The notes under the pieces are model-generated. The model had not been told where the DNA came from. It did not search any database and was given only the letters and a program-made list of their open reading frames with translations. From Pelagibacteraceae bacterium AG-359-O02 (GTDB taxonomy: Bacteria > Pseudomonadota > Alphaproteobacteria > Pelagibacterales > Pelagibacteraceae), in NCBI GenBank assembly GCA_003280485.1, contig QCEU01000001.1:62001-126000 (forward strand): 64,000 nt of DNA, written 5' to 3'. Position 1 is the first letter of the stretch. The number at the start of each line of letters is the position of its first letter. The translations under genes and the position numbers were made by a program. Of the stretch, positions 9,595 through 35,360 are shown piece after piece.

Positions 9595-10380
9595 TTATTT
9601 AATGCTTGGTATAACTTTTCTTAAATCCATAGCTATTTTTGGTTTTATATTAGAATAAATAATTCCTTTACCAACTTTCTTAAGAGCCATTATTTTACCA
9701 TCGGGTGAAATAATAACTGTATGTCCAAAAGTTTCTCTTTTAATCGTATTTTTTCCTGTTTGATTAGGTGCAAAAATATAACAAAAGTTTTCAATTGCTC
9801 TTGCTTGTAATAAAGTTAACCAATGTCTTTGACCGGTTGTTTTAGTAAATGCAGATGGAACAGTGATAAAACTAAGATTTCTTTTTGATAAGTTTCTATA
9901 AAGTTCTGGAAATCTTAAATCATAACAAATTGAAAGACCTATATTTCCCCAGGGTAATTTAGCTGATACTAATTTTTTACCTGCCTTAAATACTTTACTT
10001 TCTTTATGTTGTTCTTTTTTTGAAACTTTAACATCAAACATGTTTATTTTATCATAATAAGTATTTATTTTACCATTAGGTCCAATAAGAATTGATCTGT
10101 TTCTTAATTTGCTTTTTTCTATAATGCACATTGAGCCAAGAAGTATCCATTTCTTCTTTGTTTTAGCTATAATTTTTAATTTTTTTATTATTGGATCATG
10201 TTTCATTTCATATGAATATTTAAATAAATTATTTTTGTCAGCAGACATCAATGAAGAAGTTTCTGGAGTAATTATTAAGTCTGCTTTATTTACAATTGCT
10301 TGATTAATATATTTTACAATATCTTTAAAATTTTTATTATAATCTTCCCCACTAGATAATTGAATACAAGCCACTTTCAT
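9595..10380 (-). CDS. carbon-nitrogen hydrolase (nitrilase superfamily, Nit-like amidase)
   Basis: 261 residues with the nitrilase catalytic triad visible: Glu40 (LIITPETSS), Lys111 (YYDKINMFDV) and Cys152 in GLSICYDLRFPELYR. The C-terminal RAIENFCYIFAPNQTG matches the Nit1/Nit2 branch. That branch includes deaminated-glutathione amidase and omega-amidase, which hydrolyse small amides to acid plus ammonia. It overlaps the upstream ABC permease gene by 4 bases, so it belongs to the amino-acid transport operon. N-carbamoylputrescine amidase (AguB) is a less likely alternative given the short length. Confidence 0.87.
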   Translation of the reverse strand: MKVACIQLSSGEDYNKNFKDIVKYINQAIVNKADLIITPETSSLMSADKNNLFKYSYEMKHDPIIKKLKIIAKTKKKWILLGSMCIIEKSKLRNRSILIGPNGKINTYYDKINMFDVKVSKKEQHKESKVFKAGKKLVSAKLPWGNIGLSICYDLRFPELYRNLSKRNLSFITVPSAFTKTTGQRHWLTLLQARAIENFCYIFAPNQTGKNTIKRETFGHTVIISPDGKIMALKKVGKGIIYSNIKPKIAMDLRKVIPSIK

Positions 10381-11054
10381 GTTTGAAATCCGTATTTTTT
10401 TTCTAAATACTTTATAATATTGTGAATTATAAATGTAAGAAATAAATAAATTATTCCTGCAGTTATAAATGCTTCAAAAGGTTTAAAAGTTAAAACATTT
10501 ACTTTTCTAGCTTCACCCATTAAATCCATGATAGTTATAACACTTGCAAGTGAAGTACCTTTAAGCATTAATATTATTTCATTCCCATATGCTGGAAGTG
10601 ATTGTTTTATAGCTATTGGTAATTGAATTCTGTAAAAAGTTATTTTTTTTGTTACTCCTAAACTTTGAGCGGCTTCAATGTAACCTTTTTTAATTGTCTG
10701 AAATGCTGATCTTAGTATCTCAGACGTATAAGCTCCTGTATTTAAAGAAAATGCTATAATTGCACACCAATATGGTTCCTTTATTATTACCCAAAAAAAT
10801 GAATTCCTTAATAACTCTATATTAGCTAACCCATAATATATTAAATATAATTGAACAAGTAGAGGTGTTCCTCTAAAAAAATAAGAATAACCATAGGCAA
10901 ACTTATTAATTATTGGATTTCTATTAATTCTTAAAATTGCAAAAATTAAACCTATTATTAATCCAAAAAACATTGATGATGCTAAAAGTTGAAGAGTGAT
11001 AACTGCTCCACTTAATAAGTCGGGAAAAATACTAATCATTAATTTTATATCCAT
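10377..11054 (-). CDS. polar amino acid ABC transporter permease (HisM/OccM-like)
   Basis: 225 residues with five membrane segments. FRGTPLLVQLYLIYYGLAN is present, and the EAA loop EAAQSLGVTKKITFYRIQLP (about 142-161) is the site that docks the ATPase. This is one of two inner-membrane subunits of a histidine/lysine/arginine/octopine-type importer. It overlaps the partner permease by 1 base and the amidase by 4. No ATP-binding subunit is encoded in the window. Confidence 0.93.
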   Translation of the reverse strand: MDIKLMISIFPDLLSGAVITLQLLASSMFFGLIIGLIFAILRINRNPIINKFAYGYSYFFRGTPLLVQLYLIYYGLANIELLRNSFFWVIIKEPYWCAIIAFSLNTGAYTSEILRSAFQTIKKGYIEAAQSLGVTKKITFYRIQLPIAIKQSLPAYGNEIILMLKGTSLASVITIMDLMGEARKVNVLTFKPFEAFITAGIIYLFLTFIIHNIIKYLEKKYGFQT

Positions 11055-11746
11055 CAGTACCCTTTGCTATATTTTATTTCTAATTTATTAATTAATTTCA
11101 TACTTATGAAAGTAAGCATTAAGTACAAGACAGCTGCTATTGAATAAAAAAATAAAGGATCTCTAGTTGAGCCGGCGGCAATATAAGATTGCCTCATTAT
11201 TTCTACTAATCCTGTTACAGAAATTAAAGAAGTATCTTTTAAAGTTATTTGCCAAACATTACTTAGGTTAGGAATTGATAACCTCAACATTTGCGGTAAA
11301 ATAATTTTATAAAATTGAATATTTTTTTTAATTCCCAAAACTTTTGAAGCTTCAAATTGACCTTTATCAATTGATAATATAGCTCCTCTAAAAACTTCAG
11401 TAGAATAAGCTCCAGAGATAATCCCAATTGCAAGAGCACCAGTTATAAATGCATTTATTTCAATATAACCATCATACCCAAAAATTGAAGCTACATACAT
11501 TACAGCTCCTGTGCCACCAAAAAACAATAAGTATATTACTAATAGTTCTGGAACTCCTCTAATAATCGTAGTGTAACAATTTCCAATGATATTAAGTGAT
11601 TTATTTTTAGATAATTTTAAAGGTGTAAATATTAATGCGAATATAAATCCTATTGCCATAGCTGCAATAGAAACAGCAATGGTCATTAATGTTGCTAAAA
11701 AGAGTTCGTCTCCCCAACCAGTATCTCCAAATGAAAGAAGTTCCAT
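11054..11746 (-). CDS. polar amino acid ABC transporter permease (HisQ/OccQ-like)
   Basis: 230 residues with five membrane segments. The motif IIRGVPELLVIYLLFFGG is followed by the EAA loop EASKVLGIKKNIQFYKIILP (about 133-152). This is the partner of the permease encoded immediately downstream. It is separated from the binding-protein gene by 44 bases that hold an 11-bp stem-loop (11753-11777), which probably sets a lower expression level for the membrane subunits. Confidence 0.93.
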   Translation of the reverse strand: MELLSFGDTGWGDELFLATLMTIAVSIAAMAIGFIFALIFTPLKLSKNKSLNIIGNCYTTIIRGVPELLVIYLLFFGGTGAVMYVASIFGYDGYIEINAFITGALAIGIISGAYSTEVFRGAILSIDKGQFEASKVLGIKKNIQFYKIILPQMLRLSIPNLSNVWQITLKDTSLISVTGLVEIMRQSYIAAGSTRDPLFFYSIAAVLYLMLTFISMKLINKLEIKYSKGY

Positions 11747-11790: not shown

Positions 11791-12618
11791 TTACATAGAT
11801 GCATCAAAACCGAACCACTTGATAGCAATTCTGCTAATATGGCCATCTTTTCTTGCTTTATCGATAGCTTTGTTAAAAGCTTTTAAGAGTTTAGTATCGT
11901 CTTTTCTAATACCTACCCCTACACCATTACCAAATGCACCTCCAGAAAAAGTTGGTCCAACAAGTACAACAGCTTCGCCAGATTTTTCTGCATAGTCACT
12001 AAATGCTACCGCAGCAGCTAAAGCTACATCACATCTGCCGTTAGTCAAATCAAGATTAACCTCATCTTGGGTCTTGTAAGTTTTTAAATTTATTTTTCCA
12101 ACATCTCCAGACTCAAGAAAGTTTTGGTGAATAGTGCCAATTTGAGTACAAACTGTTTTTCCAGATAAAGCTGAAGTTAATGTTTTCATTGCTTTATTAA
12201 CAGCTGATCCACCAAGGTTTAAATTTACAGCGTCAGGAGTATCTATTCCTTCAAGATCAGAACCTTTCATAACAGCTAAGGATGCGACCTCATCAGCATA
12301 TCCTTGAGAAAAATTAATTGTTTTCATTCTTTCATCAGTGATTGACATTCCAGCCATTATAGCATCAAATTTTTTTGATGTTAAAGCTGGTATCATTCCG
12401 TCCCAGTCTTGTTCAACGATTTCACACTGCTGACCTATATATCTACAAAGTGTCCATGCAAGTTCTACTTCAAATCCTATAAGTTTACCTGAAGCATCTT
12501 TTGAATTCCAAGGCGGGTAAGCACCTTCAGTTCCTATCTTAATTTTATCTGCACTTGAAGTGCTAATTAAAAATAAAGATAACAGAACAGTTAAAAATAT
12601 ATTTTTTATTACATTCAT
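11791..12618 (-). CDS. amino acid ABC transporter substrate-binding protein (LAO/octopine type)
   Basis: 275 residues with a signal peptide ending near SSADK (about residue 24). The mature sequence IKIGTEGAYPPWNSKDASGKL, then GFEVELAWTL and GMIPALTSKKFDAIMAGMSIT are the diagnostic blocks of family 3 solute-binding proteins (lysine/arginine/ornithine, octopine). Its SD (CGGAGG) is strong. It captures a basic or polar amino acid in the periplasm. It lies 57 bases downstream of the SpeD-SpeE gene on the same strand. Confidence 0.93.
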   Translation of the reverse strand: MNVIKNIFLTVLLSLFLISTSSADKIKIGTEGAYPPWNSKDASGKLIGFEVELAWTLCRYIGQQCEIVEQDWDGMIPALTSKKFDAIMAGMSITDERMKTINFSQGYADEVASLAVMKGSDLEGIDTPDAVNLNLGGSAVNKAMKTLTSALSGKTVCTQIGTIHQNFLESGDVGKINLKTYKTQDEVNLDLTNGRCDVALAAAVAFSDYAEKSGEAVVLVGPTFSGGAFGNGVGVGIRKDDTKLLKAFNKAIDKARKDGHISRIAIKWFGFDASM

Positions 12619-12675: not shown

Positions 12676-13719
12676 TTAATGATTTATTGAAGAAGAGAAG
12701 TTCCAAGAGCAATCAAAACTAGGTATGTAAACTCTAGATAATTTAGTATTACCAAAGTTTTTATTAAATATATTTAACCAATTTTCTACTTGTTTTGGTT
12801 TTTTATCTTGGCTTCCGATCTGAGCTGTGATGACACCTTTTGGTTTTAAAATTCTTGCAAGTGAATTCATATTTTTAGCAGCCAAATCAATGCAGTATTG
12901 ATCGTCATTTAAATCAACGTATATCTGATCATATGTATTTTCTTTAACAGATTTAATGCTCTCGAATGCATCTCCCCACACACATTTCACAGAATTTTTC
13001 TCTGTAGCCTTCTCACCTATTTTACCTAGATGCTTGTCACAGACTTCAACGACTTCAGGGTCTAACTCATACCAATCAATAAAACTAAAGTTTTTGGATA
13101 TACACTCTCTGGCAACGCCACCATCACCACCTCCGATTATTGCAGCTTTTTCCTTATGGGAGTTCAAGTCTAATCCTGCGTTAACAAAAGTAGAGCTATA
13201 AAGATATTCATCCTTTTCAGCTACTTGAATTTCATTATCTATAAATAATGCTTTTCCAAATTGTTCTAATTCTAATATCTCAATATGCTGTCCAACATCT
13301 GATTTAAAATTTTCTAACACATTATTAACTACGTATGATTTTTTTAAACCTGGCGAGCTATAAATGTCATGATAAAGATCCACTGTATCTCTATTAAATT
13401 CTTTTTTAATTATTCTGCTGTGTTCAATTTCTTCCTTAATAACATTTATTGCTACTGAGGGTGAAATTTTTGCACATGTAAAAAAGTCAAAACTAATAAT
13501 ACCTTTTTCGGGAAAAGTATGGAAGCTGATGTGACTTTCAGCAAGAAGCGCAACTAGAGTAAATCCCTGTGGTTCAAATTTATATTTAGATATTTCTAAT
13601 ACTTTAACTTTTGCAATTTTTGCAATCTTGTAAACTAATTTTTCAAAAAAAACGGGATCATACTCTTTTTTGGTACCTATAATATCAAGTGTAATATGTT
13701 CACCAACTTTTGTAGTCAT
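12676..13719 (-). CDS. SpeD-SpeE fusion: S-adenosylmethionine decarboxylase-like + spermidine synthase
   Basis: 347 residues in two domains. Residues 1-120 are a class 1 SpeD: AESHISFHTFPE places a Glu61/Ser62 self-cleavage pair. Ser62, His67 and Cys82 match Ser63, His68 and Cys83 of the Thermotoga enzyme. Residues 130-345 are a SpeE aminopropyltransferase: IIGGGDGGVAREC, YELDPEVVEVC, GDAFE and IYVDLNDDQ with both acidic catalytic positions. Together they would make decarboxylated AdoMet and transfer aminopropyl to a diamine, releasing MTA. Some SpeD homologues are known to be arginine or ornithine decarboxylases, so the SpeD substrate is open. One base separates it from the upstream aldolase gene. 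Confidence 0.88.
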   Translation of the reverse strand: MTTKVGEHITLDIIGTKKEYDPVFFEKLVYKIAKIAKVKVLEISKYKFEPQGFTLVALLAESHISFHTFPEKGIISFDFFTCAKISPSVAINVIKEEIEHSRIIKKEFNRDTVDLYHDIYSSPGLKKSYVVNNVLENFKSDVGQHIEILELEQFGKALFIDNEIQVAEKDEYLYSSTFVNAGLDLNSHKEKAAIIGGGDGGVARECISKNFSFIDWYELDPEVVEVCDKHLGKIGEKATEKNSVKCVWGDAFESIKSVKENTYDQIYVDLNDDQYCIDLAAKNMNSLARILKPKGVITAQIGSQDKKPKQVENWLNIFNKNFGNTKLSRVYIPSFDCSWNFSSSINH

Positions 13720-13720: not shown

Positions 13721-14350
13721 CTAATCTCTTTTATACGTTTTACTTTTAGATAAAACTTTTTTCATTTCATTTAAACTTAAAAGTTTTGGTCTTCCTAGAA
13801 CAAGAGCTTTGATATATTGTTTAGCAAGATTGTCAACTTCCTCGGCAAGCTCAAATGCATCCTTAAGACTTCTTCCAAATGCAATTTGTCCATGATTTGC
13901 TATTAAACATGCTGATCTATTTTTTAAGGCTTTAAGAATATTTTTTGACAATTCTCGAGTTCCATAAGTTGCATACTTTGCACACTTTATGTCTATGCCT
14001 CCTGCTAAAGCCACCATATAGTGAAATGAGGGTATTTTCTTATTGTGAGTTGATAATGCTGTTGCGTTTGTAGAGTGAGAATGAACAATTGCTTTTGCTT
14101 TTTTTTTTGAATTATATATATCTTGATGAAATCTCCACTCAGATGATGGTTTATGATTTTTATTATATTCACCATTAAGATTTATAAAAACAATATCTTT
14201 TTCCTTAAGTGATGAATACTTTTGTCCTGAGGGAGTGATTAAAAAACCTTTTTTGTGTCTTAATGAAATATTACCAGATCTTAACGCTGATAGTTTTTTA
14301 TCGTTTAGCATTTTGGCGAATTTAATTACTTCTTTTTTTGATGAATTCAT
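13721..14350 (-). CDS. class II aldolase/adducin-family protein (MtnB/fuculose-P aldolase-like)
   Basis: 209 residues from the ATG at 14350. A longer frame from 14410 would overlap the divergent BKACE gene and adds a non-conserved Lys-rich leader, so I reject it. Motifs: SGNISLR, ITPSGQKYSSL, SSEWRFHQDIY, then the zinc pair in VHSHSTNATALS and a third His in LIANHGQIAFG. The family contains sugar-phosphate aldolases and methylthioribulose-1-phosphate dehydratase (MtnB). The presence of mtnP and mtnA 10 kb away and an MTA-producing SpeE next door makes a role in MTA or 5-deoxyribose salvage plausible but unproven. Confidence 0.85.
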   Translation of the reverse strand: MNSSKKEVIKFAKMLNDKKLSALRSGNISLRHKKGFLITPSGQKYSSLKEKDIVFINLNGEYNKNHKPSSEWRFHQDIYNSKKKAKAIVHSHSTNATALSTHNKKIPSFHYMVALAGGIDIKCAKYATYGTRELSKNILKALKNRSACLIANHGQIAFGRSLKDAFELAEEVDNLAKQYIKALVLGRPKLLSLNEMKKVLSKSKTYKRD

Positions 14351-14395
14351 TTTATTTAAGTATACTAAATTTTTAATTTTTATTAGATTGAATTT

Positions 14396-15181
14396 ATGGC
14401 CTTTTTTCAACCAGATAAATTACCAAAGTTAATGGTTGCCCCAAATGGAGCAAGAAAAGTCAAGAAAGATCATCCAGAAGTTCCCTTAACAATCAGAGAA
14501 ACAGTTGATGTTGCTAAAAATTGTTTTGAAGCAGGAGCAGGTGCTATTCATCTTCATGTAAGAAATAATAAAGGAGAACATGTTTTAGATGCTGGATTGT
14601 ATAAAGAGGCATTAAGTGAATTAGAGCACCAGGTTCCTAAAATGCATATTCAGGTCACTACTGAAGCAATTGGCAAGTATTCCCCTGAAGAAATGAGGAA
14701 GCTTGCATATGATGTAACTCCGCCAGGGACATCAATTGGTACAGCTGAATTAATACCTTCCAGAAACCCAACAGAGGAAGATGTAAAATTGTATAAATAT
14801 TTGACTGAGGCTGGAACTAAAATACAGCATATTTTGTATGATCCACAGGATGTGGGCTTATTAGTGAAACTTTTAAATAAAGCAGAAATTCCAATTGAAG
14901 GAGCTTGGTGTTTATTTGTAATTGGTCATTACACAGGTAAAATTAGTTATCCTGAAAAAATTCCAGAGTTCCTAAAAGTAATGAAAGATAATAATGTCAA
15001 TTTAGATTGGTCAATATGCGCTTTTGCAAAAGAAGAAATGAGTTGCTTGGAAAAAGCAATTAACCTAGGTGGTAAAATTAGAGTAGGATTTGAAAATTCC
15101 TTGTATATGCCAAATGGAGAAATTGCTCCGAACAATCATTCAAAAATATTGGCTATAAATCATTTGTTCAAGTTATCTTAA
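14396..15181 (+). CDS. beta-keto acid cleavage enzyme (BKACE, DUF849)
   Basis: 261 residues. The metal-binding pair His52/His54 lies in AIHLHVRN, and the C-terminal RVGFENSLYMPNG carries the third acidic ligand region; both are diagnostic of the BKACE family (founding member 3-keto-5-aminohexanoate cleavage enzyme, Kce). These enzymes condense a beta-keto acid with acetyl-CoA, giving acetoacetate and a new acyl-CoA. The start is 45 bases from the divergent aldolase start, and the end overlaps the convergent hydroxylase by 9 bases. The actual beta-keto substrate is unknown; BKACE activities include carnitine- and betaine-derived keto acids. Confidence 0.88.
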   Translation: MAFFQPDKLPKLMVAPNGARKVKKDHPEVPLTIRETVDVAKNCFEAGAGAIHLHVRNNKGEHVLDAGLYKEALSELEHQVPKMHIQVTTEAIGKYSPEEMRKLAYDVTPPGTSIGTAELIPSRNPTEEDVKLYKYLTEAGTKIQHILYDPQDVGLLVKLLNKAEIPIEGAWCLFVIGHYTGKISYPEKIPEFLKVMKDNNVNLDWSICAFAKEEMSCLEKAINLGGKIRVGFENSLYMPNGEIAPNNHSKILAINHLFKLS

Positions 15182-16633
15182 AATCAAAGAATATTTTTTT
15201 ACAAGTAAACCAACATCTTTATTTGATCTTGCTGAAGCTAAAATAAATCTATCTGGTCTTACTAAAATAGCTTTTGAATTAATATTTTTTAAATATTTTG
15301 ATACATTGATTAAATTCTTTGCTTTCAATAAAGAGTAATTTTTTAAGTTTTTGGTCTTTATTTCTGAAGATAAAATTATCATTCCTTTTTTTGAAAAATG
15401 ATCATCTAGGGTTTTATTATTTTTAAGTTTGAATTGTGGAAAAGTTTTGCCTCTATTTTTATCATTTAGCTTGCCTAAGCCTTTTCCTAGTTTAGGTTTA
15501 ATTGATTGCATACTTTTAATACCTTTATTATCAGATTTTATATTGTCTGTTATTTGAATGGACTCAACAGCATTTACAAATTCTCCCATCCTCATAGTGG
15601 TTTCAATATATTCTTTAACATTGAGAGATCTTTCTGACTGATATGTATTTAAAAGTTTATCATCAAATTTATTTCTTATACAATTGGCAATTTTCCATGC
15701 TAAATTTGATGCATCCCTAATTCCAGCACACATTCCTTGACCCATAAATGGTGGCATTAAATGAGCGGCATCCCCAGCTATAAAAACTCTACCTTTTCTC
15801 CATTTTCTGGCAATAGCAGATTCAAATGTATAAATTGTTTTTCTCTCAATAATTGCTTCGCTTTTATTTAGCCAAGGTTTAAGAAAATTCCAAATATAAT
15901 TATCTGATAAAACTTTTTTATCACTATGATTTTTCTTAATTGCAAATTCCCATCGTCTACGTCTACCAACATTTCTACAATATGTTGCTGGTTGTTTTGG
16001 ATTTGAATATTGAATTGTTCTATCTGGCAAATTATTTTTTTTCTTTTTCAATATTAGATCAACTACTGCCCATTTTTGAGTAAAACCTAAATTATCCATT
16101 TTTGTTTTCATTTGTTTTCTAGTTATAGAGTTGGCGCCGTCACAACCAATTACATATTTTGACCTTACGAGATAATCTTTGTGATTATTTATATTTAAAT
16201 ATGTTATATCTACATGATTTTTTGAATTTTTAATTTTTATAACCTCAGAATTTTGTTCTATTGATACCTTTTTATAATTTTTTAATTTTTTTCTAAGTTT
16301 TTTTTCTAGATCTGGTTGATGAAATCTATAACTTGGATACCATCCATTATCTGTAATTTTTTTTGGTCTTGGCCAATCTAATATTACTTTGTCTTTAGAA
16401 TTAACGAATTTAGTACCTTTGTTGATTATGGTGTGTTTCAAAAATTCTTTTGTAATTCCTATTGTTTGAAATACTCTCATAATTTCGTCATCAAAATGGA
16501 CCGCTCTAGGGAGAGGATAAAAACTTTTTTCTCTATCGAGAATTAATATTGATAGGTCATGCATTGCCAGAAGGTTTGCTAAAGTTCCTCCCGCAGGTCC
16601 TAATCCTACTATTGTGACATCAAATTCTTTCAT
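15173..16633 (-). CDS. FAD-dependent aromatic-ring hydroxylase (MhpA-like)
   Basis: 486 residues. The N-terminal VTIVGLGPAGGTLANLLA is the FAD Rossmann motif, GCDGANSITRKQ is the DG motif, and VFIAGDAAHLMPPFMGQGMCAGIRD is the second FAD motif of class A flavoprotein monooxygenases. YPLPRAVHFDDEIMR resembles 3-(3-hydroxyphenyl)propionate hydroxylase (MhpA). It would hydroxylate a phenolic acid to a catechol using NAD(P)H and O2. It is the last gene of the FAH, dctP, dioxygenase, hydroxylase series on the minus strand, which supports aromatic catabolism. The exact substrate cannot be read. Confidence 0.86.
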   Translation of the reverse strand: MKEFDVTIVGLGPAGGTLANLLAMHDLSILILDREKSFYPLPRAVHFDDEIMRVFQTIGITKEFLKHTIINKGTKFVNSKDKVILDWPRPKKITDNGWYPSYRFHQPDLEKKLRKKLKNYKKVSIEQNSEVIKIKNSKNHVDITYLNINNHKDYLVRSKYVIGCDGANSITRKQMKTKMDNLGFTQKWAVVDLILKKKKNNLPDRTIQYSNPKQPATYCRNVGRRRRWEFAIKKNHSDKKVLSDNYIWNFLKPWLNKSEAIIERKTIYTFESAIARKWRKGRVFIAGDAAHLMPPFMGQGMCAGIRDASNLAWKIANCIRNKFDDKLLNTYQSERSLNVKEYIETTMRMGEFVNAVESIQITDNIKSDNKGIKSMQSIKPKLGKGLGKLNDKNRGKTFPQFKLKNNKTLDDHFSKKGMIILSSEIKTKNLKNYSLLKAKNLINVSKYLKNINSKAILVRPDRFILASARSNKDVGLLVKKYSLILR

Positions 16634-16646
16634 GGGTATTAAAAAA

Positions 16647-17618
16647 TTATTTTTTTTTTAAATTTGAATACAACCAAGGACAATCAATTAACAATGGAGC
16701 TTGTTTTCCTTGAGAAGCAGTTTCGAGTCTTTTATTTCTAAATTTCATTCTCTCATCATCAGGTAAATAAAGTCTCTCGTGCCCCCAAAAACTAGGCCCC
16801 TCAAATGTTTCAACAGGCTGCCACGTATCCGGATTGATAATCCTCCCACCCCATCCATTTTCAATAAAAAATCCTGAAGGTGTAATTGAATAAAATGAAG
16901 TCATATAATCATTCGTATGTCTTCCCATTGTATAAGCAATTGCGTTATCCTTGTATTGCAGCAAGTCATACCCTTGACCTACATCGTCTAAGTTGTTGTA
17001 TTCAACCATAAAATGATGGAAACCTGTTCCACCTGAACCAAATAAAGCTAAACTATGATGTCTGCCATTAACATGAAAAAAACACAAAGATATGGGAGTA
17101 TGACTATAATCACTTATCTTGAAGCCCATTACATCTCTATAAAAAGGAATTAAATCATCAATTTTTTTAACATGCACAACAGCATGTCCCATACCAAGTG
17201 GCCCAGTCTTAAATCCTGAAATTGGCCTACCTGGTTTAAATGGATCAGTATCTAACATAGGCTTATAAACTAGCTCAATACGATTTCCTTGTGGGTCATT
17301 AAAATATATTAAATCCTCAACAAAACGTTTATCAGCAAAAGAATTCTTTCCATGATACACTACTACTTTATTTTCCTCTAATTTATTTGCAAAGGTTTGA
17401 AGATCTTCTTTGCTCTCAACTTCCCATCCTAAAAATCCTAATCCATCTCCTTTATCGCCAGTTATTGTTAATCTTTGTTTTTGGTCATCCATTCTAAAAG
17501 ATAGAATTTCTTTTCCGCGGTCCATTTGTTGCATACCAAGGTATTTTTGAGAATAGTCTGACCAATCCTCAAATTTATCTGAATTAACTCCAATATAACT
17601 TAAAGCTTTTACTGCCAT
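16647..17618 (-). CDS. type I extradiol dioxygenase (VOC family, BphC-like)
   Basis: 323 residues in two VOC modules. The C-terminal module has the 2-His-1-carboxylate iron site: His145 (GMGHAVVHV), His201/202 (FHHFMVE) and Glu253 (SGFFIENGWGG). NGRHHSLAL at about 185-193 is the other family block. Such enzymes cleave catechols next to the hydroxyls. The gene lies 13 bases upstream of the hydroxylase that would make its catecholic substrate. A hairpin and about 60 bases separate it from dctP. Length and motif order fit 2,3-dihydroxybiphenyl/2,3-dihydroxy-phenylpropionate dioxygenases of the VOC type. Confidence 0.87.
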   Translation of the reverse strand: MAVKALSYIGVNSDKFEDWSDYSQKYLGMQQMDRGKEILSFRMDDQKQRLTITGDKGDGLGFLGWEVESKEDLQTFANKLEENKVVVYHGKNSFADKRFVEDLIYFNDPQGNRIELVYKPMLDTDPFKPGRPISGFKTGPLGMGHAVVHVKKIDDLIPFYRDVMGFKISDYSHTPISLCFFHVNGRHHSLALFGSGGTGFHHFMVEYNNLDDVGQGYDLLQYKDNAIAYTMGRHTNDYMTSFYSITPSGFFIENGWGGRIINPDTWQPVETFEGPSFWGHERLYLPDDERMKFRNKRLETASQGKQAPLLIDCPWLYSNLKKK

Positions 17619-17643
17619 TTTATTATTATACTTAATTTTGAAA

Positions 17644-17669
17644 GAGCCCGCTATGAAATTAGCGGGCTC
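17644..17669 (-). terminator. strong hairpin after dctP, attenuator or weak terminator
   Basis: GAGCCCGCTA (17644-17653) and TAGCGGGCTC (17660-17669) form a 10-bp GC-rich stem with a 6-base loop, in an otherwise AT-rich region. It lies 11 bases after the dctP stop. The minus strand continues TTTCAAAATT, a poor U tract, so partial read-through into the dioxygenase gene is likely. Confidence 0.75.
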
Positions 17670-17680
17670 GAATTTAACTA

Positions 17681-18694
17681 TTAACCGTCTATTTTAGAAA
17701 TTACTTCTCTTGCTCTTTTTAATACAGCATCTCCATCAAGACCTTTGCCTTTCATTTCTGCTAACCAGTCAGATTCGATCGGAGCCAATATTTTTTTGTA
17801 TTCAGCTAAAACTGAGTCTGATGCAACAGTTATCTCGTGTCCTGGAGTATTTTCTACTTGAACTCTCATCTTGGCATTCTGAGTATCAATTAAATTAGAT
17901 GCCCAGTCGCCAAACCACTGACCAGAATGTTTATCAACACATCCTTTTGCAGCCGAAGACAGACCGTTATATTTTCCTTCATTCATTATTAATCCAAATG
18001 TTGCATTAGTGATGTTAACTTCTGTATGATATTTAGTAACATCAAATAATCTAAATGAACCAATTGCTGTGTATGGGAATGGTGTACCATCTATAACACC
18101 TTTATTTAAGGCTTCTGAAGTTCCTGGTGCTGGTACTTTAACCCCAGTTGCTCCTAAAGTTTTAAGAATAGTTCCAGCTATTTTGCTTGGAACTCTCATT
18201 TTTTTACCTTTAAAGTCTGCTGGTTTAACTACTTTAGTATCCTTCATATGTATTTGGTATCCAGGGTTCGAATGAAGTCCTATCAGTTTAATTCCTGCCA
18301 TTTCTTTATCTAGGTAACCTTCTTCAAAAAGAGTATTTAAAGCTCTAGATCCAGCTTTTGAAGTCTTGGTCAGGAATGGAAGTTCTACAACTGAACTTAA
18401 AGGAAATTGACCACCAATGTATCCAAGAACTGTCCAAGATATATCTGCAACTCCTGAAGTTACTATATCGTATTGTTTTGGAGGACTTCCTAATACTCCT
18501 CCCGCATACATTTTTACATTTAAAGCACCATTTGAACATTTGTTAACTTTATCTGCCCAAGCAGCTAAAATCTTACTTGCTATAAATGCTTTTGGTGGTT
18601 CAAAAGTTGCTAACTTTAATTCTGTAGCTGATGCCGTGCTAATAATGCTTAAGGAAAAAATTCCTATAACAAAACCAATTATTTTTTTTTTCAT
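17681..18694 (-). CDS. dctP: TRAP transporter solute-binding protein DctP
   Basis: 337 residues with a signal peptide (cleavage near STASA, about residue 23). The mature protein has KLATFEPP, then GKKMRVPSKIAG (about 143-154), carrying the carboxylate-binding Arg conserved in DctP proteins. It delivers a carboxylate to a DctQM permease. The likely partners are encoded divergently at 19664-21465, with the FAH gene between, so the TRAP system is split across two strands. Lying inside a hydroxylase/dioxygenase series, it probably imports an aromatic or related acid (inference). Confidence 0.92.
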   Translation of the reverse strand: MKKKIIGFVIGIFSLSIISTASATELKLATFEPPKAFIASKILAAWADKVNKCSNGALNVKMYAGGVLGSPPKQYDIVTSGVADISWTVLGYIGGQFPLSSVVELPFLTKTSKAGSRALNTLFEEGYLDKEMAGIKLIGLHSNPGYQIHMKDTKVVKPADFKGKKMRVPSKIAGTILKTLGATGVKVPAPGTSEALNKGVIDGTPFPYTAIGSFRLFDVTKYHTEVNITNATFGLIMNEGKYNGLSSAAKGCVDKHSGQWFGDWASNLIDTQNAKMRVQVENTPGHEITVASDSVLAEYKKILAPIESDWLAEMKGKGLDGDAVLKRAREVISKIDG

Positions 18695-18744
18695 GTTAAT
18701 CCCCTCTTATTATTAAATAATTATAAGAAAGTTTAACTTGAAAA

Positions 18745-19596
18745 TTAGATTATTTCATCCTTAATTGTATTAGATAAAGTGCCAATTTCTGTGATTTCTA
18801 TTTCAACATTATCTCCAGGCTTCATAAATACTGGAGGGTTTCTTTTAAACCCTACACCTCCAGGCGTACCAGTGACTAGTACATCACCTGCTCTCCAAGC
18901 CATAGCTTTAGAAACATACGAAATTAAAATTGGAATATCGAAAATAAGTTGACTTAATTTTGCGTTTTGCATTACCTCGCCATTTAATCTAGTTTCAATT
19001 GTTAAATTTTTATAATTATTAATGTCCTCAGCTAAAACCATGTGTGGACCAAAACTCCCTGTTTTTTCAAAATTTTTACCCATCCCAAATTGTCTTGTAT
19101 GTCTCTGCCACTCTCTTACAGTACTTTCATTATAACATGAATAACCAATTATATGCTTTAAGGCATCCTCAGTTTTTATGTGTTTGCCACCTTCACCCAT
19201 AATTACTGCCATCTCACCTTCAAAATCTAAACTTTGTGAAACAACAGGTCTTTGAATTGGCTGTAAGTGTGCAGTTTGACTTTCTGGAAATCGATGAAAA
19301 ATTACTGGGTTTTCTTCAACTGTTCTGTTTGTTTCTTTAACATGTTCACTATAATTTAAACCTACACAAATAATTTTTCCAGGATTTGGAATTAGCGGTA
19401 AATATTCTATTTCTGACTCATTAATATCGCCTAAATTATTTGTTGCATAAGATTTAGCTTCTTCAATTCCTTGATTTGAAATTAAATCTTTTAGTGTATT
19501 TGAATTAGATACTTTTCCAGTAAGATCTGTAATTTTATTATTATTAATAATACCAAACTTATTTTGTTGATTATGTTTAAAAGAAATAAATTTCAT
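18745..19596 (-). CDS. fumarylacetoacetate hydrolase (FAH) family protein
   Basis: 283 residues. ICVGLNYSEHVKETN, SLDFEGEMAVIMGEGG (Glu-x-Glu metal ligands) and VTGTPGGVGFKRNPP at the C-terminus define the FAH fold used by acylpyruvate hydrolases, 2-keto-4-pentenoate hydratases and HpaG-type isomerases. The usual metal-ligand Asp in N-D-x-[ST]-x-R is Glu here (GYSCYNESTVREWQ). As first gene of the aromatic series it would act on the ring-cleavage product after the dioxygenase. Which of hydrolase, hydratase or isomerase it is cannot be decided. Confidence 0.87.
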   Translation of the reverse strand: MKFISFKHNQQNKFGIINNNKITDLTGKVSNSNTLKDLISNQGIEEAKSYATNNLGDINESEIEYLPLIPNPGKIICVGLNYSEHVKETNRTVEENPVIFHRFPESQTAHLQPIQRPVVSQSLDFEGEMAVIMGEGGKHIKTEDALKHIIGYSCYNESTVREWQRHTRQFGMGKNFEKTGSFGPHMVLAEDINNYKNLTIETRLNGEVMQNAKLSQLIFDIPILISYVSKAMAWRAGDVLVTGTPGGVGFKRNPPVFMKPGDNVEIEITEIGTLSNTIKDEII

Positions 19597-19663
19597 GATT
19601 AATACTTTCTATTTTTGAAACTATTTATATGTTAATGTTTAGATAATTTGAAGCAACATTTTT

Positions 19664-20155
19664 ATGATTTCTAAAGTCAGTAAAGTTTTTGATTATTCAG
19701 CGATAGCTTCAGGTATTATTTTATTTTTATTAGCTGTATTAACTTTTTGTGACGTATTTGGAAGACGATTTTTAAATTCGCCAGTAACAGGTACAATTGA
19801 GTTAGTTGAGATAGGGATGGCATTAGTAGCTTTCCTTGCAATGCCAAGAGCATTTTATTTAAATGCTAATGTTTCAGCGGACTTTATAAATAATTTAAAT
19901 TTGGGAATATTTAAAACTTATTTGGTAATTTTAAAATTTGTTTTAATGATATCGATTATGTCTGTAATGGCATATTCGACTACTTTGACATCATATAAAT
20001 TTATGAATAATCAAAGAGTAACACTTGATTTAGAACTGTATTTTTATCCATTTTATTTCATATGCTCCATTGGGATGTGGTTAAGTGTTTTTGCAATAGT
20101 AATATGGTTTATCAAAACTATTTTTAAAAATAGTTCAAAAGAAAAGGAATTATAA
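19664..20155 (+). CDS. dctQ: TRAP transporter small permease DctQ
   Basis: 163 residues with four membrane segments. The motif FCDVFGRRFLNSPVTGTIELVE (FGRxxxxxPVxGxxEL) is typical of DctQ. It bridges DctP and DctM in the cytoplasmic membrane. It overlaps dctM by one base (TAATG). The divergent FAH-dctP transcript starts 67 bases away, so one control region probably drives both halves of the transporter. Confidence 0.92.
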   Translation: MISKVSKVFDYSAIASGIILFLLAVLTFCDVFGRRFLNSPVTGTIELVEIGMALVAFLAMPRAFYLNANVSADFINNLNLGIFKTYLVILKFVLMISIMSVMAYSTTLTSYKFMNNQRVTLDLELYFYPFYFICSIGMWLSVFAIVIWFIKTIFKNSSKEKEL

Positions 20156-21465
20156 TGGGTTTAGAAGCTGTAATTAATGGAGGATTATCTTTCGCTGCTG
20201 TATTAATTTTAATGGTACTAAATGTACCAATAGGAATTGCGATGTTGGTAGTTGGTTTTACTGGCTTTGCAATGATTTCAGGATTTGATCCTGCAATATT
20301 TGTTTTGGGTACCGCTCCATTTGATGCAGTTTCAAAATATACATTATCAGTGTTGCCTCTCTTTGTATTAATGGGAAATCTTGCTAATAGCTCAAATTTA
20401 TCAAGAAATTTATATGATGCTGCCTATGCAATAGTAGGCCATTACAAGGGTGGTTTGGCAATGTCTACAGTTGGTGCATGTGCTGGATTTGGAATGATTT
20501 GTGGATCTTCAATTGCAACAGCTGCAACAATGTCTCAAATGGCAGGTCCTGAAATGAGAAGGCATGGTTATAGCGATGCTCTAATTAGTGGTTCTATTGC
20601 TTCTGGAGGTACACTTGGAATAATAATTCCACCAAGTGTTATTTTGGTAATATACGCTTATTTAACCGAACAATCAGTCCAAGAACTTTTTTTTGCTGCA
20701 CTCGTACCAGGAATAATCGCAGTGTTACTTTATATGATCGCAATTAGAGTTTATCTTTTAATTTACCCTTCACAAGGTGGGTATGGAACTAAAATGCCAT
20801 TAAAAGAAAGAATTTCAGCTATCTCAAAAGTTTTTCCAATATTTTTAATATTTGCAATTATGATGGGTGGACTCTATTTAGGTTTTTTCACTGCTACTGA
20901 GAGTGCTGCGGTAGGAGTAATATTAGTTTTAGTCTTTATTTTTTTTAGAGGCCAATTAAAATTAAGTTTGTTGAAAGATGCAGTTTGGACAACAATCAAG
21001 ACAGTTGGTTCATTATATTTAATTGTAATTGGAGCAAGTATATTTAATTATCTTATTACAGTTACCCAGTTACCTTTTGCTGTGGTTGATTTTATAAATT
21101 ATTTAGAACTTACGCCTTTAGGAATAATTTTAGTAATTTGTGCGATATACTTGGTGCTAGGAACAGTAATGGACTCTTTGGCAATGCTATTTTTAACTAT
21201 TCCAGTATTTTATCCTGTAATTGTTGATGCTGGTATTGATCCAGTATGGTTTGGTATATTTGCAGTAATAGTTGTTGAATTTGGATTAATTTCACCACCT
21301 GTGGGTATGAATTTATTCGTTATTAAAGGTGTTATGCAAAAAACTCCCCTCCAAACAATATGGTTTGGAACACTTCCTTTCTTAATGACAGATGTAATTA
21401 GACTTGCCTTAATTATAGCTTTCCCAGCAATTTGTTTATATTTACCTAGTCTGATGAATCCGTAG
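20155..21465 (+). CDS. dctM: TRAP transporter large permease DctM
   Basis: 436 residues with about twelve membrane segments, the usual DctM size. It has NVPIGIAMLVVGFTG at the start, SGGTLGIIIPPSVILVIYAY in the middle and FGLISPPVGMNLFVIKGV near the C-terminus, the diagnostic Ile-Pro-Pro-Ser and Pro-Pro-Val-Gly loops. It carries out Na+-coupled translocation with DctQ and DctP. Its last 20 bases overlap the convergent small membrane protein gene at 21446. Confidence 0.94.
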   Translation: MGLEAVINGGLSFAAVLILMVLNVPIGIAMLVVGFTGFAMISGFDPAIFVLGTAPFDAVSKYTLSVLPLFVLMGNLANSSNLSRNLYDAAYAIVGHYKGGLAMSTVGACAGFGMICGSSIATAATMSQMAGPEMRRHGYSDALISGSIASGGTLGIIIPPSVILVIYAYLTEQSVQELFFAALVPGIIAVLLYMIAIRVYLLIYPSQGGYGTKMPLKERISAISKVFPIFLIFAIMMGGLYLGFFTATESAAVGVILVLVFIFFRGQLKLSLLKDAVWTTIKTVGSLYLIVIGASIFNYLITVTQLPFAVVDFINYLELTPLGIILVICAIYLVLGTVMDSLAMLFLTIPVFYPVIVDAGIDPVWFGIFAVIVVEFGLISPPVGMNLFVIKGVMQKTPLQTIWFGTLPFLMTDVIRLALIIAFPAICLYLPSLMNP

Positions 21466-21790
21466 TCTGATTGAAATTCTTAAAATAATTATAATAAATT
21501 AATCCAAAAATAGCACCTACAAGGATTAAAATATATTGATAAAATTTTAAAAGAACAAATACTACAGGAAGTTCTTTGCCAGGGTTTTGAGCAATGAAAT
21601 TTTCAGTTCCATCTTTATATAAATCTATCGGTCCAAAAGTTGCATACAGACCATAAATAAAAATATAAACGCATGGAATTATTGAAATTAATAATAGAAT
21701 TTTATTTTTTCTTAATAATTTTATAAGATTTGCAGAAACTCCAACTGTTACTAAACCGATTAAAGATAATATTAATGGATTCATTACCAC
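21446..21790 (-). CDS. small membrane protein, unknown, last gene of the MTA operon
   Basis: 114 residues with three predicted membrane segments (about 5-22, 30-50 and 82-103). I do not recognise it. Its start overlaps the end of the sulfatase gene by 7 bases, and its end overlaps convergent dctM by 20. The tight coupling argues that it is expressed with the mtnP-mtnA operon. A membrane role related to the sulfatase substrate is one possibility. Confidence 0.7.
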   Translation of the reverse strand: MVMNPLILSLIGLVTVGVSANLIKLLRKNKILLLISIIPCVYIFIYGLYATFGPIDLYKDGTENFIAQNPGKELPVVFVLLKFYQYILILVGAIFGLIYYNYFKNFNQTTDSSD

Positions 21791-23367
21791 ACTCCTATCA
21801 TAATACCGTCGTCTTTAGTATAGTCTCTTTCTTTCAAAACAAATTCATCAGTTGCTGCAACTCTATTTTTTCTATTAGTAATTCTTTCTAGTAGAATATC
21901 TTTCATTTCCTCAATAATTTTCAAGTGATTAGGAGATTGACCTAGGTCATTGAACTCATCTGGATCATTTTTTAAGTCAAACAATTGAGGTGGAAAACCT
22001 TTATAATAAATATACTTCCAATTATTATTTCTAATCATATAAGCTCTAGCATCTGATGCTCCAATATTAAGAATTTTTCTTGCTTCGTTAAATGAGTAAT
22101 CTATTTCACTAAATACACTATCTTTCCAATTAGAAACTTTATCTCCTCTAATAATTGGTAACAATGATTGTCCCTCGAGGCGATGTTTGCTTGCATTGCT
22201 ATCTACAGTGTCTAAAAAAGTAGGCAGCAAGTCTATAGCCTCTACAAATCTTTTTTCTCTAACTCCCCTATTGTTATCTGACAAATTGCTTGGATCATAA
22301 ATTATCATTGGAACTTTAACAATTTGTTCATGAAAAAGCTCTTTTTCTCCTAGCCAATGATCGCCCTGATAGTCACCATGATCTGATGTAAAAACTATCA
22401 TTGTATTATTCATATAATTTTTTTCTTCAAGAAAATTAAATAGTCTCCCAAGATTATCATCTATTTGCTTTATCAATCCCATGTATCCTGAAAGAACAGT
22501 ATTTCTCACTTCTTCTCTTGAAAAAGTCTTTGAAATATTATTTTCCATGAAAGCTTTATAGACTGGATGATCTATTTCTTTTTCAGTATTACTTCGATGA
22601 ACCGGGTAAAATTGATTTGAGGAGTACATGTTATGATAAGGAGCAGGAGCAATGTATGGCCAATGAGGTTTAATATATGATAAATGCAAAAACCAAGGCC
22701 TATCCTCACTTTCTTGAATAAATTCCATTGATCTATTTGTCATAAATGCAGTTTCAGAATGTTCTTCTTTAACTCTTGCTGGTTTATTTGAATTTCTTAA
22801 CCTCCATCCACTCAAAATATTTCCACTTTCATCCTCTGATGAATTTGCCCAACTATCCCAAGGATTATCACCCTCATATCCAAGTTTGTTTAACCAGTCA
22901 TTGTAAGATAGTTTTTTAGTTGAATTTTTAATGTGGTTATTAGGATGAAGTCCGTCATCTCTCTCATAAGGATCAAATCCTGGTTCACTAACTGTAAGAC
23001 CTATTTCTGTATTTTTTGAAATTCCAAGTCTATTCATTCCATCTATATCGGGTCTCATATGTGTTTTACCAACGACACCAGTCCTAATTCCAGATTGCCT
23101 CAAATAATCTCCAATAGTTAGTTCACCGATTGGTAAAGGTATTTGGTTCCAAGTTGATCCATGGCTAAATACTGTTCTTCCAGTATAATAAGATGCTCTT
23201 GATGGGCCACAAACAGGAGCTTGAACATAAGCTGAATCAAATATAACTCCTTTTTTTGCTAAAGCGTCTATGTGAGGTGTTTTAAGGTGCGGATGACCAT
23301 AACAAGAAAGATAATCAAATCTTAGTTGATCAGCCATTATAAATAAAATATTTTTAACTTTATTCAT
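21784..23367 (-). CDS. formylglycine-type sulfatase / phosphonate monoester hydrolase-like
   Basis: 527 residues of the alkaline phosphatase superfamily. Metal-binding Asp13 (MADQLRFDY) and the sulfatase signature CGPSRASYYTGR (Cys53 converted to formylglycine) are present, then FTSDHGDYQGDH with further metal ligands. GFPPQLFDLKNDPDEFNDLG near the C-terminus and the roughly 520-residue length resemble phosphonate monoester hydrolase/arylsulfatases of this superfamily. No export signal is seen, so it is cytoplasmic and acts on an imported or internal sulfate or phospho(no)ester. It overlaps mtnA by one base. Cys53 needs a formylglycine-generating enzyme encoded elsewhere. Confidence 0.88.
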   Translation of the reverse strand: MNKVKNILFIMADQLRFDYLSCYGHPHLKTPHIDALAKKGVIFDSAYVQAPVCGPSRASYYTGRTVFSHGSTWNQIPLPIGELTIGDYLRQSGIRTGVVGKTHMRPDIDGMNRLGISKNTEIGLTVSEPGFDPYERDDGLHPNNHIKNSTKKLSYNDWLNKLGYEGDNPWDSWANSSEDESGNILSGWRLRNSNKPARVKEEHSETAFMTNRSMEFIQESEDRPWFLHLSYIKPHWPYIAPAPYHNMYSSNQFYPVHRSNTEKEIDHPVYKAFMENNISKTFSREEVRNTVLSGYMGLIKQIDDNLGRLFNFLEEKNYMNNTMIVFTSDHGDYQGDHWLGEKELFHEQIVKVPMIIYDPSNLSDNNRGVREKRFVEAIDLLPTFLDTVDSNASKHRLEGQSLLPIIRGDKVSNWKDSVFSEIDYSFNEARKILNIGASDARAYMIRNNNWKYIYYKGFPPQLFDLKNDPDEFNDLGQSPNHLKIIEEMKDILLERITNRKNRVAATDEFVLKERDYTKDDGIMIGVW

Positions 23368-24440
23368 TATCTATTAAACATTTGTTTTAAACCGACAGTC
23401 GATGCCTGGCATATCCCTTTCTCTGTAATTAAACCTGTTACATATTTTGCTGGAGTTATGTCAAATGCTAAATTCATCGATTTACTGTTTTCAGGATAAA
23501 TTAAAACTTTCTTGATATTATTTTTATCATCTTTTCCTTCTATATGGGATAGCTCTTCAGAATTTCTTTCTTCAATAGGTATCTTATTATAATCTTTAGT
23601 TTCCCAATCAATTGTGGTGCTTGGTAAAGCCACATAAAAGGGCACATTATTATCATGTGCTGCTAATGCTTTTAAATAGGTACCGATTTTATTACATACA
23701 TCTCCAGTTGATAAAGTCCTGTCAGTTCCAACTATGCACATATCAACTTCACCTCTTTGCATTAAAATACCTCCAGTATTATCTGTAATAATTGTATTTG
23801 GTATACCCTCTTCATTTAATTCATATGATGTTAAATTTGCACCTTGGTTCCTAGGTCTAGTCTCATCAACCCAAACATGAATTGGTATTCCTTTACTATG
23901 TGCTTGATAAATTGGTGAGGTTGCTGTCCCCCAATCTATAGTTGCAAGCCAACCAGCATTACAGTGAGTTAAGATATTTACAGTTTTGTTGTTTTTATTA
24001 AAAATTTCCTCAATTATTTTAAGCCCATTAAATCCTATATTCTCACAAAATTTGACATCTTCATCACATATTAATTTTGCTTCATTTAATGCCACATCCA
24101 ATAATTCATCAGACTTCACAAATGATAATTTATTGTTCATTCTATGAATTGCCCATTGTAAGTTTATAGCTGTAGGTCTTGAATTAACTAATTCTTCTGA
24201 ACTTTTTTTAATAAAATCTAAATTTTTATTTTCTTGTATTGCCAATACTATTCCATAAGCAGCAGTTCCACCAATAAGAGGTGCTCCTCTTACCTCCATA
24301 GTTTTTATTGCTTTTACTGCATCTTTTATTGTCTTCAAATCTTTAATAATAAACTGATGCGGAAGTTTGGTTTGATCAATTATTTTTACTACATTATTTT
24401 CATACCAAATTGTTCTATATTTTTTTCCCTTTATTTTCAT
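23367..24440 (-). CDS. mtnA: S-methyl-5-thioribose-1-phosphate isomerase MtnA
   Basis: 357 residues, the normal length. RGAPLIGGTAAYG (about 51-63), Cys160 in ILTHCNAGWLATIDWGTA and Asp240 in VDMCIVGTDRT match the catalytic Cys160/Asp240 of the Bacillus enzyme at the same numbers. The related eIF2B-alpha/beta fold is present throughout. It isomerises methylthioribose-1-phosphate to methylthioribulose-1-phosphate, following MtnP. The stop abuts the sulfatase start, and the start abuts the oxygenase stop. It could also accept 5-deoxyribose-1-phosphate. Confidence 0.94.
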   Translation of the reverse strand: MKIKGKKYRTIWYENNVVKIIDQTKLPHQFIIKDLKTIKDAVKAIKTMEVRGAPLIGGTAAYGIVLAIQENKNLDFIKKSSEELVNSRPTAINLQWAIHRMNNKLSFVKSDELLDVALNEAKLICDEDVKFCENIGFNGLKIIEEIFNKNNKTVNILTHCNAGWLATIDWGTATSPIYQAHSKGIPIHVWVDETRPRNQGANLTSYELNEEGIPNTIITDNTGGILMQRGEVDMCIVGTDRTLSTGDVCNKIGTYLKALAAHDNNVPFYVALPSTTIDWETKDYNKIPIEERNSEELSHIEGKDDKNNIKKVLIYPENSKSMNLAFDITPAKYVTGLITEKGICQASTVGLKQMFNR

Positions 24441-25232
24441 TTAATTACCCCAAACCACAGGAAACCAATCTTTTCTCATTTTATCTCCTGAATTTAAATC
24501 TATTCCTTCAAAAGGTGGAGAAGTTTCTCCTTTTCTATCAATGTATCTTACATCGTCTCCAATAAATCTTGCAGAGAAAGCTTTACGGCTTTTTTTGTCA
24601 TTATTTCCTGAAGATGAATGTAAAACTTTAAAATTAAATAATATTGCATCTCCTATATTCATCTCTGTACTAAAAATATTATTTTTATCTATATTTGGCA
24701 TGTTCATAAAGTTCTTATTATTTCTATACCAAGAAGAGTCATTTGACCATTTGGTAGGCTTTACTAGCATTGGTAACTTATGGGATCCTTTTAAAACTTT
24801 CAGGCAGTTATCCTTCGATATATTATCTAATGGTATCCAGAAACTTCCTGTATCATTTCCATCTACACAATAATAGGGAAGATCTTGATGCCATGGAGTT
24901 TCCTTTTTTGTTCCAGGTTCCTTTAAGAAAATGTGTTCATGGAACACTTGAATTTTACTAGATTGAGTTGATTGAGCGACAATTTCTGCTGCTGGTGAAT
25001 TAAAAATAAAATCTTTAAATTCCTCAATTCTTTCCCAGTTACAATAATCTTCAAAAAATCTTCCTTCTTGTGGTTTTGAAATATTTTCTCTTCCATATGG
25101 ACTTGGGTTGTTCAATACTTTTTGAAATCCGTTTTTAAGTTTCTCAATCCAAGGTAAAAAGGCTTCTTTGATTAAAATTACACCATCATTTTTATAATTT
25201 GAAATTTGTTTATCAGATAGTTTTACTGTCAC
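24441..25232 (-). CDS. phytanoyl-CoA dioxygenase (PhyH)-family Fe(II)/2-oxoglutarate oxygenase
   Basis: 263 residues. The iron facial triad is visible: His115-x-Asp117 in TPWHQDLPYY and distal His205 in VLHSSSGN. The 2-oxoglutarate-binding Arg216 and Ser220 sit at the expected spacing. VFHEHIFLKEPG and LDNISKDNCLKVLKGSHKLP are further PhyH-family blocks. It hydroxylates a small substrate with O2 and 2-oxoglutarate. It sits between mtnP (4-base overlap) and mtnA (no gap), which is unexpected for methionine salvage. PhyH-family members also attack phosphonates and betaines, so the substrate is open. Confidence 0.88.
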   Translation of the reverse strand: MTVKLSDKQISNYKNDGVILIKEAFLPWIEKLKNGFQKVLNNPSPYGRENISKPQEGRFFEDYCNWERIEEFKDFIFNSPAAEIVAQSTQSSKIQVFHEHIFLKEPGTKKETPWHQDLPYYCVDGNDTGSFWIPLDNISKDNCLKVLKGSHKLPMLVKPTKWSNDSSWYRNNKNFMNMPNIDKNNIFSTEMNIGDAILFNFKVLHSSSGNNDKKSRKAFSARFIGDDVRYIDRKGETSPPFEGIDLNSGDKMRKDWFPVVWGN

Positions 25233-26101
25233 TTATTTAAAACTCTTCCTGCTACTGTTTTTAGTTTATCTTTTGTTTTTTGTGATCTTTTTTCTGGAGC
25301 AGTGATTATAGCAACATCTAAGCAATTATTTGTTGGGTCATCTGGGTCAATATGATTATCAAAATTATCAATAAGATTTTTAATCATACTTTTTGCTTTT
25401 TCAGCATTTCCTAAAAGAACTTTTATTACTTTTTGTACATCAACATTTTCATGATCAGGGTGCCAACAATCAAAGTCAGTAACCATAGATACTGAAGCAT
25501 ATCTAATTTCAGCTTCTCTCGCTAACTTTGCTTCTGGCATATTTGTCATTCCAATCACATCGGCTTTCCATGATCTATAAAGTTTCGACTCAGCCAAAGT
25601 AGAAAATTGTGGGCCCTCCATTACTACATAAGTTCCACCCATTTGATAATCTATTCCTTCTTTTTTAATTGCATCCTCACATGCATTCATTAAACCCTTA
25701 GAGGTTGGATGTGCCATTGATACATGAGCAACAATTTCATCATCAAAAAAAGTTTTATTTCTTGCAAATGTTCTATCTATAAATTGATTAATAATAATAA
25801 ACTTTCCAGGAGGTAAATCTTCTTTTAAAGAGCCAACTGCAGATATTGATACAATATCTGTTACACCTAGTTGTTTTAATGCGTCAATGTTTGCTCTAAA
25901 ATTAATATTTGATGGTGATATGAAATGTCCTCTTCCATGTCTTGGAAGAAAATAAACTTCTTTACTATTATAATTAGTTTTTAAAATCTGATCTGAGGGT
26001 TTTCCCCAAGGAGTGTCTAAATCTATTAATTCTCTGTTTTTTAATTCTTCAACGTCGTAAAGACCACTTCCTCCAATTATTGCTAATTTATTATTTGCCA
26101 T
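25229..26101 (-). CDS. mtnP: S-methyl-5'-thioadenosine phosphorylase MtnP
   Basis: 290 residues. The N-terminal LAIIGGSGLYD is the phosphate-binding start typical of MTAP. LPRHGRGHFISPSNINFRAN, SAVGSLKEDLPPG and NMPEAKLAREAEIRYASVSMVTDFDCWH are family blocks for purine and methylthioribose binding. It splits MTA (or 5'-deoxyadenosine) with phosphate into adenine and the sugar-1-phosphate. It is first in a five-gene overlapping operon and is divergent (37-base gap) from apt, which would recover the adenine. Confidence 0.95.
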   Translation of the reverse strand: MANNKLAIIGGSGLYDVEELKNRELIDLDTPWGKPSDQILKTNYNSKEVYFLPRHGRGHFISPSNINFRANIDALKQLGVTDIVSISAVGSLKEDLPPGKFIIINQFIDRTFARNKTFFDDEIVAHVSMAHPTSKGLMNACEDAIKKEGIDYQMGGTYVVMEGPQFSTLAESKLYRSWKADVIGMTNMPEAKLAREAEIRYASVSMVTDFDCWHPDHENVDVQKVIKVLLGNAEKAKSMIKNLIDNFDNHIDPDDPTNNCLDVAIITAPEKRSQKTKDKLKTVAGRVLNK

Positions 26102-35270: not shown

Positions 35271-35299
35271 GGTTCAGCCTTTCTAATTCTTTTTTTTAA

Positions 35300-35327: not shown

Positions 35328-35360
35328 ATTGAGCGAATTTCAAATAAAGAAATCGTCACA

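Follow-up and report, generated by a model that had tools for sequence, protein, structure and literature searches.

The fused AdoMet decarboxylase-aminopropyltransferase gene of Pelagibacter and the putative methylthioadenosine modules in its neighbourhood

The window considered here is the whole stretch of 64,000 nucleotides that was analysed, taken from a Pelagibacter (SAR11) genome whose assembly spans 1.10 Mb and is 84.7% complete. It carries a speDE gene, which lies between transporter genes on one side and, on the other, a candidate aldolase gene, ald2, beyond which stand mtnA, mtnP and a divergent apt (Table 1). The solved structures nearest to Ald2 are those of FucA, with 6btd and 6btg further off; the protein scores under the NCBIfam equivalog cut-offs and is a class II aldolase by family only. 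Since mtnA and ald2 are 9 kb apart in the window, they do not form one operon there. The island that separates them contains genes for a BKACE protein, an MhpA-like FAD monooxygenase, an extradiol dioxygenase, DctP, an FAA hydrolase, two TRAP membrane proteins and a sulfatase-like hydrolase. It is absent from those loci where mtnA, ald2 and speDE are contiguous, and it recurs in another genome (G725, L194) as in the window, as far as that stretch was read. A gene 62% identical to the PhyH-family gene of the window is found in genome G012 beyond the permeases that follow speDE (L183:11721-12506). No riboswitch or structured RNA was found near speDE, a single tRNA being all that reaches Rfam gathering scores in the window. 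Elsewhere in the same stretch, a three-domain TPP enzyme (33486-35270, minus strand) faces two plus-strand genes (35208-36818) that we take to code for sulfolactate/altronate-type enzymes, and near the window edge a flavin amine oxidase family protein with an RR-containing N-terminus (684-2033) could be a putative amine or polyamine oxidase.

Table 1. Coordinates of the features discussed, in the window unless a locus handle (L) is given
Feature	Position	Strand	Evidence
ABC permease 2	10377..11054	-	
ABC permease 1, in 80/80 loci	11054..11746	-	
Solute-binding protein of family 3 (basic amino acid type); follows speDE in 80/80 loci	11791..12618	-	
speDE, class 1b AdoMet decarboxylase-aminopropyltransferase fusion, 347 aa	12676..13719	-	start 13719, stop at 12676
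SpeE half, residues 120-341, without the usual aminopropyltransferase C-terminal ~40 residues	12697..13362	-	Pfam, alignment, structure matches
SpeD half, residues 8-110	13390..13698	-	Pfam AdoMet_dc; NCBIfam TIGR03330 over cut-off
Cys82 codon, partner of Ser62	13474-13476	-	
His67 codon, partner of Ser62	13519-13521	-	
Ser62 codon, predicted pyruvoyl-forming residue	13534..13536	-	aligned AdoMetDC chains from T. maritima and, presumably, A. aeolicus
Candidate ald2 (class II aldolase), a single base from speDE on its upstream side	13721..14353	-	Aldolase_II
Island between mtnA and ald2-speDE, ~9 kb	14396..23367	.	
mtnA, methylthioribose-1-phosphate isomerase	23367..24440	-	TIGR00512, 416 bits, cut-off 279
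PhyH-family oxygenase between mtnA and mtnP	24441..25232	-	
mtnP, methylthioadenosine phosphorylase	25229..26101	-	TIGR01694, 306.4 bits, cut-off 274.85
apt, adenine phosphoribosyltransferase, divergent	26139..26666	+	TIGR01090, 191.2 bits, cut-off 185.85
677-aa bifunctional aldolase/short-chain dehydrogenase, PRK08324 type, in the place of ald2	e.g. L026:2879-4912	opposite strand	
175-aa nucleosidase-like gene	L183:7753-8280		
Putrescine cluster: 392-aa PLP decarboxylase, SpeY-type protein, AguB, AguA in a row	L100, own genome, contig C2		

That SpeD and SpeE are joined in one polypeptide, as the sequence-only reading had it, is borne out by Pfam domains over their cut-offs in both halves: AdoMet_dc at residues 8-110 (88.9 bits, cut-off 25), then Spermine_synt_N, a tetramerisation domain, at residues 120-168 (34.6 bits, cut-off 22.1) and Spermine_synth at residues 172-341 (81.3 bits, cut-off 22.9). 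The SpeD half further reaches 91.4 bits with TIGR03330, the B. subtilis-type AdoMetDC model, against a cut-off of 75.65. Taking the second half as a spermidine synthase went further than the models allow: the aminopropyltransferase domains are present, but the two NCBIfam spermidine-synthase equivalog cut-offs are missed (108.9 bits against 249.55, and 128.4 against 260), and 'aminopropyltransferase' is therefore the safer name. The residues earlier proposed as an intact pyruvoyl site, Ser62, His67 and Cys82, were correctly numbered, as they align with S63, H68 and C83 of T. maritima; the other chain aligned, structure 2iii, is presumably that of the A. aeolicus AdoMetDC. Among 98 distinct fusion proteins, drawn from 142 loci, Cys82, Pro70 and a GGGDG motif are present without exception; S62, H67 and DLND are conserved in this set by construction, because they were part of the selection pattern. 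Judged on the aligned sequences, the conserved residues of the fusion are not there by chance. The T. maritima triad is the one named in PMC10407285.

The predicted structure of the fusion has a mean pLDDT of 87.5, and its best whole-length Foldseek match is human spermine synthase (3c6m). The superposition of the model over that length is poor, with an rmsd of 10.8 over 351 columns, so that the arrangement of the domains is not fixed by the model. Taken alone, the SpeE half fits aminopropyltransferases at about 2 Å, with Z of about 28-31 over some 220-240 residues; it stops about 40 residues before 7xif and, in alignment, 60 or so residues before the SpeE proteins found at class level. The animal enzyme (3c6k, 3c6m in human) likewise combines a SpeD-like N-terminal domain with an aminopropyltransferase, and is said to derive from a bacterial fusion of the SpeD-SpeE kind; it differs in that its N-terminal domain lacks AdoMetDC function (PMC12803844), while identity is 18% and the Pelagibacter SpeE half is the shorter at its C-terminus.

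The fusion itself is already known, and it is found throughout the genus. From 435 related stretches, 80 loci from named genomes were kept, all of them labelled Pelagibacteraceae, the nearest being 98% identical; relatives within the family range from 61 to 98% identity, the lower figure being that of a fusion in two genomes of a second genus. Matches to the fusion occur in 231/300 genomes of the genus, and in 41 of the 44 that combine at least 90% completeness with at most 5% contamination. Partial or split matches, as in G073, G084, G131, G292 and others, lie in several cases at contig ends, and that of G084 has an internal stop. Class-wide, matches come from 160 of 386 genomes and, among those listed, are mostly to separate SpeD and SpeE stretches; fused frames exist elsewhere at 28-29% identity (e.g. 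L154, L155). A phage origin was considered and rejected: 142 phage records match, none covering 80% of the query, and the best of them, Microcystis phage MaAM05, has speE and speH annotated as separate genes. A Pelagibacter AdoMetDC-APT fusion was reportedly described by Green and colleagues in 2011, a study that PMC12803844 cites.

Both activities have been demonstrated by others in relatives, and may by analogy be ascribed to the protein of the window. Expressed in E. coli, the fusions of strains HTCC1062 (WP_011282223) and HTCC7211 (WP_008544956) restore spermidine in a speD deletion, yield spermine and thermospermine when speE or speG is deleted, and turn 1,3-diaminopropane into norspermidine (PMC11107197). 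They belong to the same or a near genus and share an N-terminal class 1b AdoMetDC followed by an APT, but come from other species, the likeness resting on genus and domain order. The sequence-only reading would have the fusion channel decarboxylated AdoMet; complementation in E. coli would be equally expected if this intermediate diffused freely between the domains. These products raise the question of what the SpeE half mainly does. It could be chiefly a spermine/thermospermine or norspermidine synthase, or else degrade spermidine by running in reverse, a reversible SpeE having been argued for SAR11 by Noell et al., who mention the fusion (PMC8437039). The missed equivalog cut-offs point the same way, as do Asp199 of motif 2 with Gly at +2 and Glu218 of motif 3, which fit, with motif columns of our own reading, the spermine-synthase pattern of PMC11107197. 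Yet the same orthologues make spermidine too, and the case for a reverse reaction was made from metabolite levels, which were clear in one of two strains. A main role other than spermidine synthesis is thus distinctly possible, though we would not go so far as to call it probable.

What is new is the context of speDE, and we understand it as follows. The place immediately upstream of the gene is occupied by Ald2, on the same strand, in 49 of the 80 named-genome loci and by a 677-aa aldolase/short-chain dehydrogenase, on the opposite strand, in the other 31. The gene mtnA lies within the fetched flank in at least 36 of the 80 (28/49 with Ald2, 8/31 with the aldolase/dehydrogenase), these counts being lower bounds because many loci are cut or contain the island. 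A survey of 115 genomes, made up of the window's own and 114 with a completeness of 90% or more, found Ald2 in 77 (a threshold of E 1e-10 gives 78, including one weak match) and the full-length aldolase/dehydrogenase in 17. The two never occur together, against 11.4 genomes expected, with a chance figure of 3e-10 that overstates independence, since the 115 genomes are related. Searching for mtnA in 52 of the 115 revealed it over cut-off in all 17 genomes with the aldolase/dehydrogenase, in 13 of 14 with Ald2 (the other being cut by a contig end) and in a single one of the 21 with neither; a partial mtnA stands at a contig end in G713. A third type of neighbour was met upstream of speDE in G012 and G218, where a 175-aa gene has PRK05634 as its nearest model, at 95.8 bits and below the cut-off of 129. 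This nucleosidase-like gene is present in 8 of the 21 genomes that have neither aldolase, each time between apt and speDE, and in none of the 31 others. The remaining two named among the 21 are G725, with mtnA and no aldolase found in a stretch whose reading ends within the island, some 1.6 kb short of the contig end, and G236. Co-loss of speDE with mtnA, considered for three genomes at least 90% complete and without speDE (G217, G236, G257, by elimination), was dropped because in G236 apt-mtnP-mtnA runs into a contig end, its last part in mixed orientation.

We would describe the slot between apt and speDE as holding one of three interchangeable modules, each a predicted means of removing the SpeE by-product methylthioadenosine (MTA), namely mtnP-mtnA-ald2, mtnP-mtnA with the 677-aa enzyme, or the nucleosidase-like gene, so that speDE would be wired to the disposal of its own by-product. 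The functions of the modules are predicted from protein families, and we regard this reading as somewhat probable. The DHAP shunt, where mtnP or mtnK acts with mtnA and ald2, and of which an MtnP variant has been named (PMC10986504), shares mtnP and mtnA with the locus, as well as a class II aldolase; it differs in that Pelagibacter has these genes linked to a fused speDE and, in some members of the genus, another gene in the place of the aldolase. A more prosaic view would be that speDE and its mtn and ald neighbours have stayed together by descent only, the aldolases serving deoxy-sugar catabolism and playing no part in the fate of MTA. SAR11 genomes generally keep their gene order, fuculose-phosphate aldolases are the best solved relatives of Ald2, and the aldolase/dehydrogenase resembles rhamnulose-phosphate enzymes. 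Against this, an aldolase goes with mtnA in 30/31 of the genomes searched, as opposed to 1/21 of those that have no aldolase, and the third module in the slot, unrelated to the others, is of the MTA/SAH-nucleosidase type. Furthermore, in a speDE tree built from 84 proteins (81 labelled as Ald2 or aldolase/dehydrogenase, two as nucleosidase, and one outgroup) one aldolase type gives way to the other at least four times in the same place, as judged by well-supported branches of a quick method with few starred branches, and recombination could be behind these changes. Descent alone appears unlikely to account for the pattern.

There remains the origin of the diamine. The sequence-only reading had suggested that the SpeD half might decarboxylate arginine or ornithine, thus feeding its own SpeE. 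SpeD relatives with such activities do exist, one of them in a pelagiphage of the SAR11 host group (PMC9992855), and both the arginine type, SpeDA, and the ornithine type, SpeDC, belong to the same family and are expected to keep the Ser/His/Cys triad, so that a pyruvoyl site alone cannot tell the types apart (PMC10407285). A proline separates bona fide AdoMetDC from SpeDA (section 7 of that paper), and SpeDC is marked by diagnostic Gln, Thr, Phe and Tyr. Unlike SpeDA, the fusion keeps the proline: it has P70 as well as P50, at the two places with Pro in the T. maritima alignment, the relevant column being deduced from the text of PMC10407285 and that alignment. Where the fusion reads HTWPE, the SpeD homologue of pelagiphage HTVC021P reads HSWDE. 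This phage protein (L178:2345-2740), without the AdoMetDC proline, may be arginine-type, like the HTVC201P enzyme. Within the 84.7% of the window's own genome that is assembled, the AdoMet_dc match is unique, and neither a standalone speD nor any second AdoMetDC that could supply SpeE was found. The same genome has two PF02784 decarboxylases: one is LysA, which exceeds its cut-off, and the other is the 392-aa protein of the putrescine cluster of Table 1; the SpeY-type protein of this cluster is over the NF002699 cut-off, and its AguA and AguB types are below their NCBIfam equivalog cut-offs. The make-up of the cluster is that of the Fig. 2 legend of PMC9992855, and in Ca. P. ubique and Fonsibacter the decarboxylase of such a cluster uses arginine, with no detectable activity towards ornithine or lysine (PMC9992855). 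This separate route, together with the single AdoMet_dc match, implies that putrescine is made elsewhere and that the SpeD half is needed as an AdoMetDC. With same-genus orthologues assayed as AdoMetDC (PMC11107197), the proline kept and a dedicated cluster at hand, we reject arginine or ornithine decarboxylation as what the SpeD half mainly does, and even as an additional role it is highly improbable.

The pathway that we propose would then run as follows. The SpeD half would cleave itself before Ser62, generating the pyruvoyl group used to decarboxylate AdoMet, and the SpeE half would transfer the aminopropyl group to putrescine, probably also to spermidine, releasing one MTA each time; putrescine would be supplied by the arginine-type PLP decarboxylase with AguA and AguB. 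MtnP would split MTA into adenine, to be taken up by Apt, and methylthioribose-1-phosphate, which MtnA would isomerise. Ald2, with a substrate assigned after the DHAP shunt, would cleave the product into DHAP and methylthioacetaldehyde, while the 677-aa enzyme would carry out the aldolase step and also process the aldehyde. From this arrangement we infer that SpeDE and MTA salvage are coupled. For the account as a whole, an AdoMetDC-aminopropyltransferase fusion that receives its putrescine from another cluster and whose MTA is handled by the speDE locus, our confidence is high. No paper on a speDE/MTA locus was found by title or start of abstract, and PMC8437039 may mention mtnP outside its main text; a class II aldolase is placed in an Arctic SAR11 island by PMC12421898, with no link to MTA or polyamines in the part of its text cited here.

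The analysis thus confirms a published fusion in the most abundant marine bacteria, closes a speculative lead on the source of their diamine and, should the modules act as predicted, singles out the 677-aa aldolase/dehydrogenase as a candidate enzyme. SAR11 cells are not known to reduce sulfate. If this holds and the reading of the modules is true, the module standing next to speDE would decide whether polyamine synthesis costs the cell reduced sulfur or returns it; and if the predicted functions of the modules hold, polyamine synthesis in SAR11 would be linked to the salvage of both adenine and sulfur.
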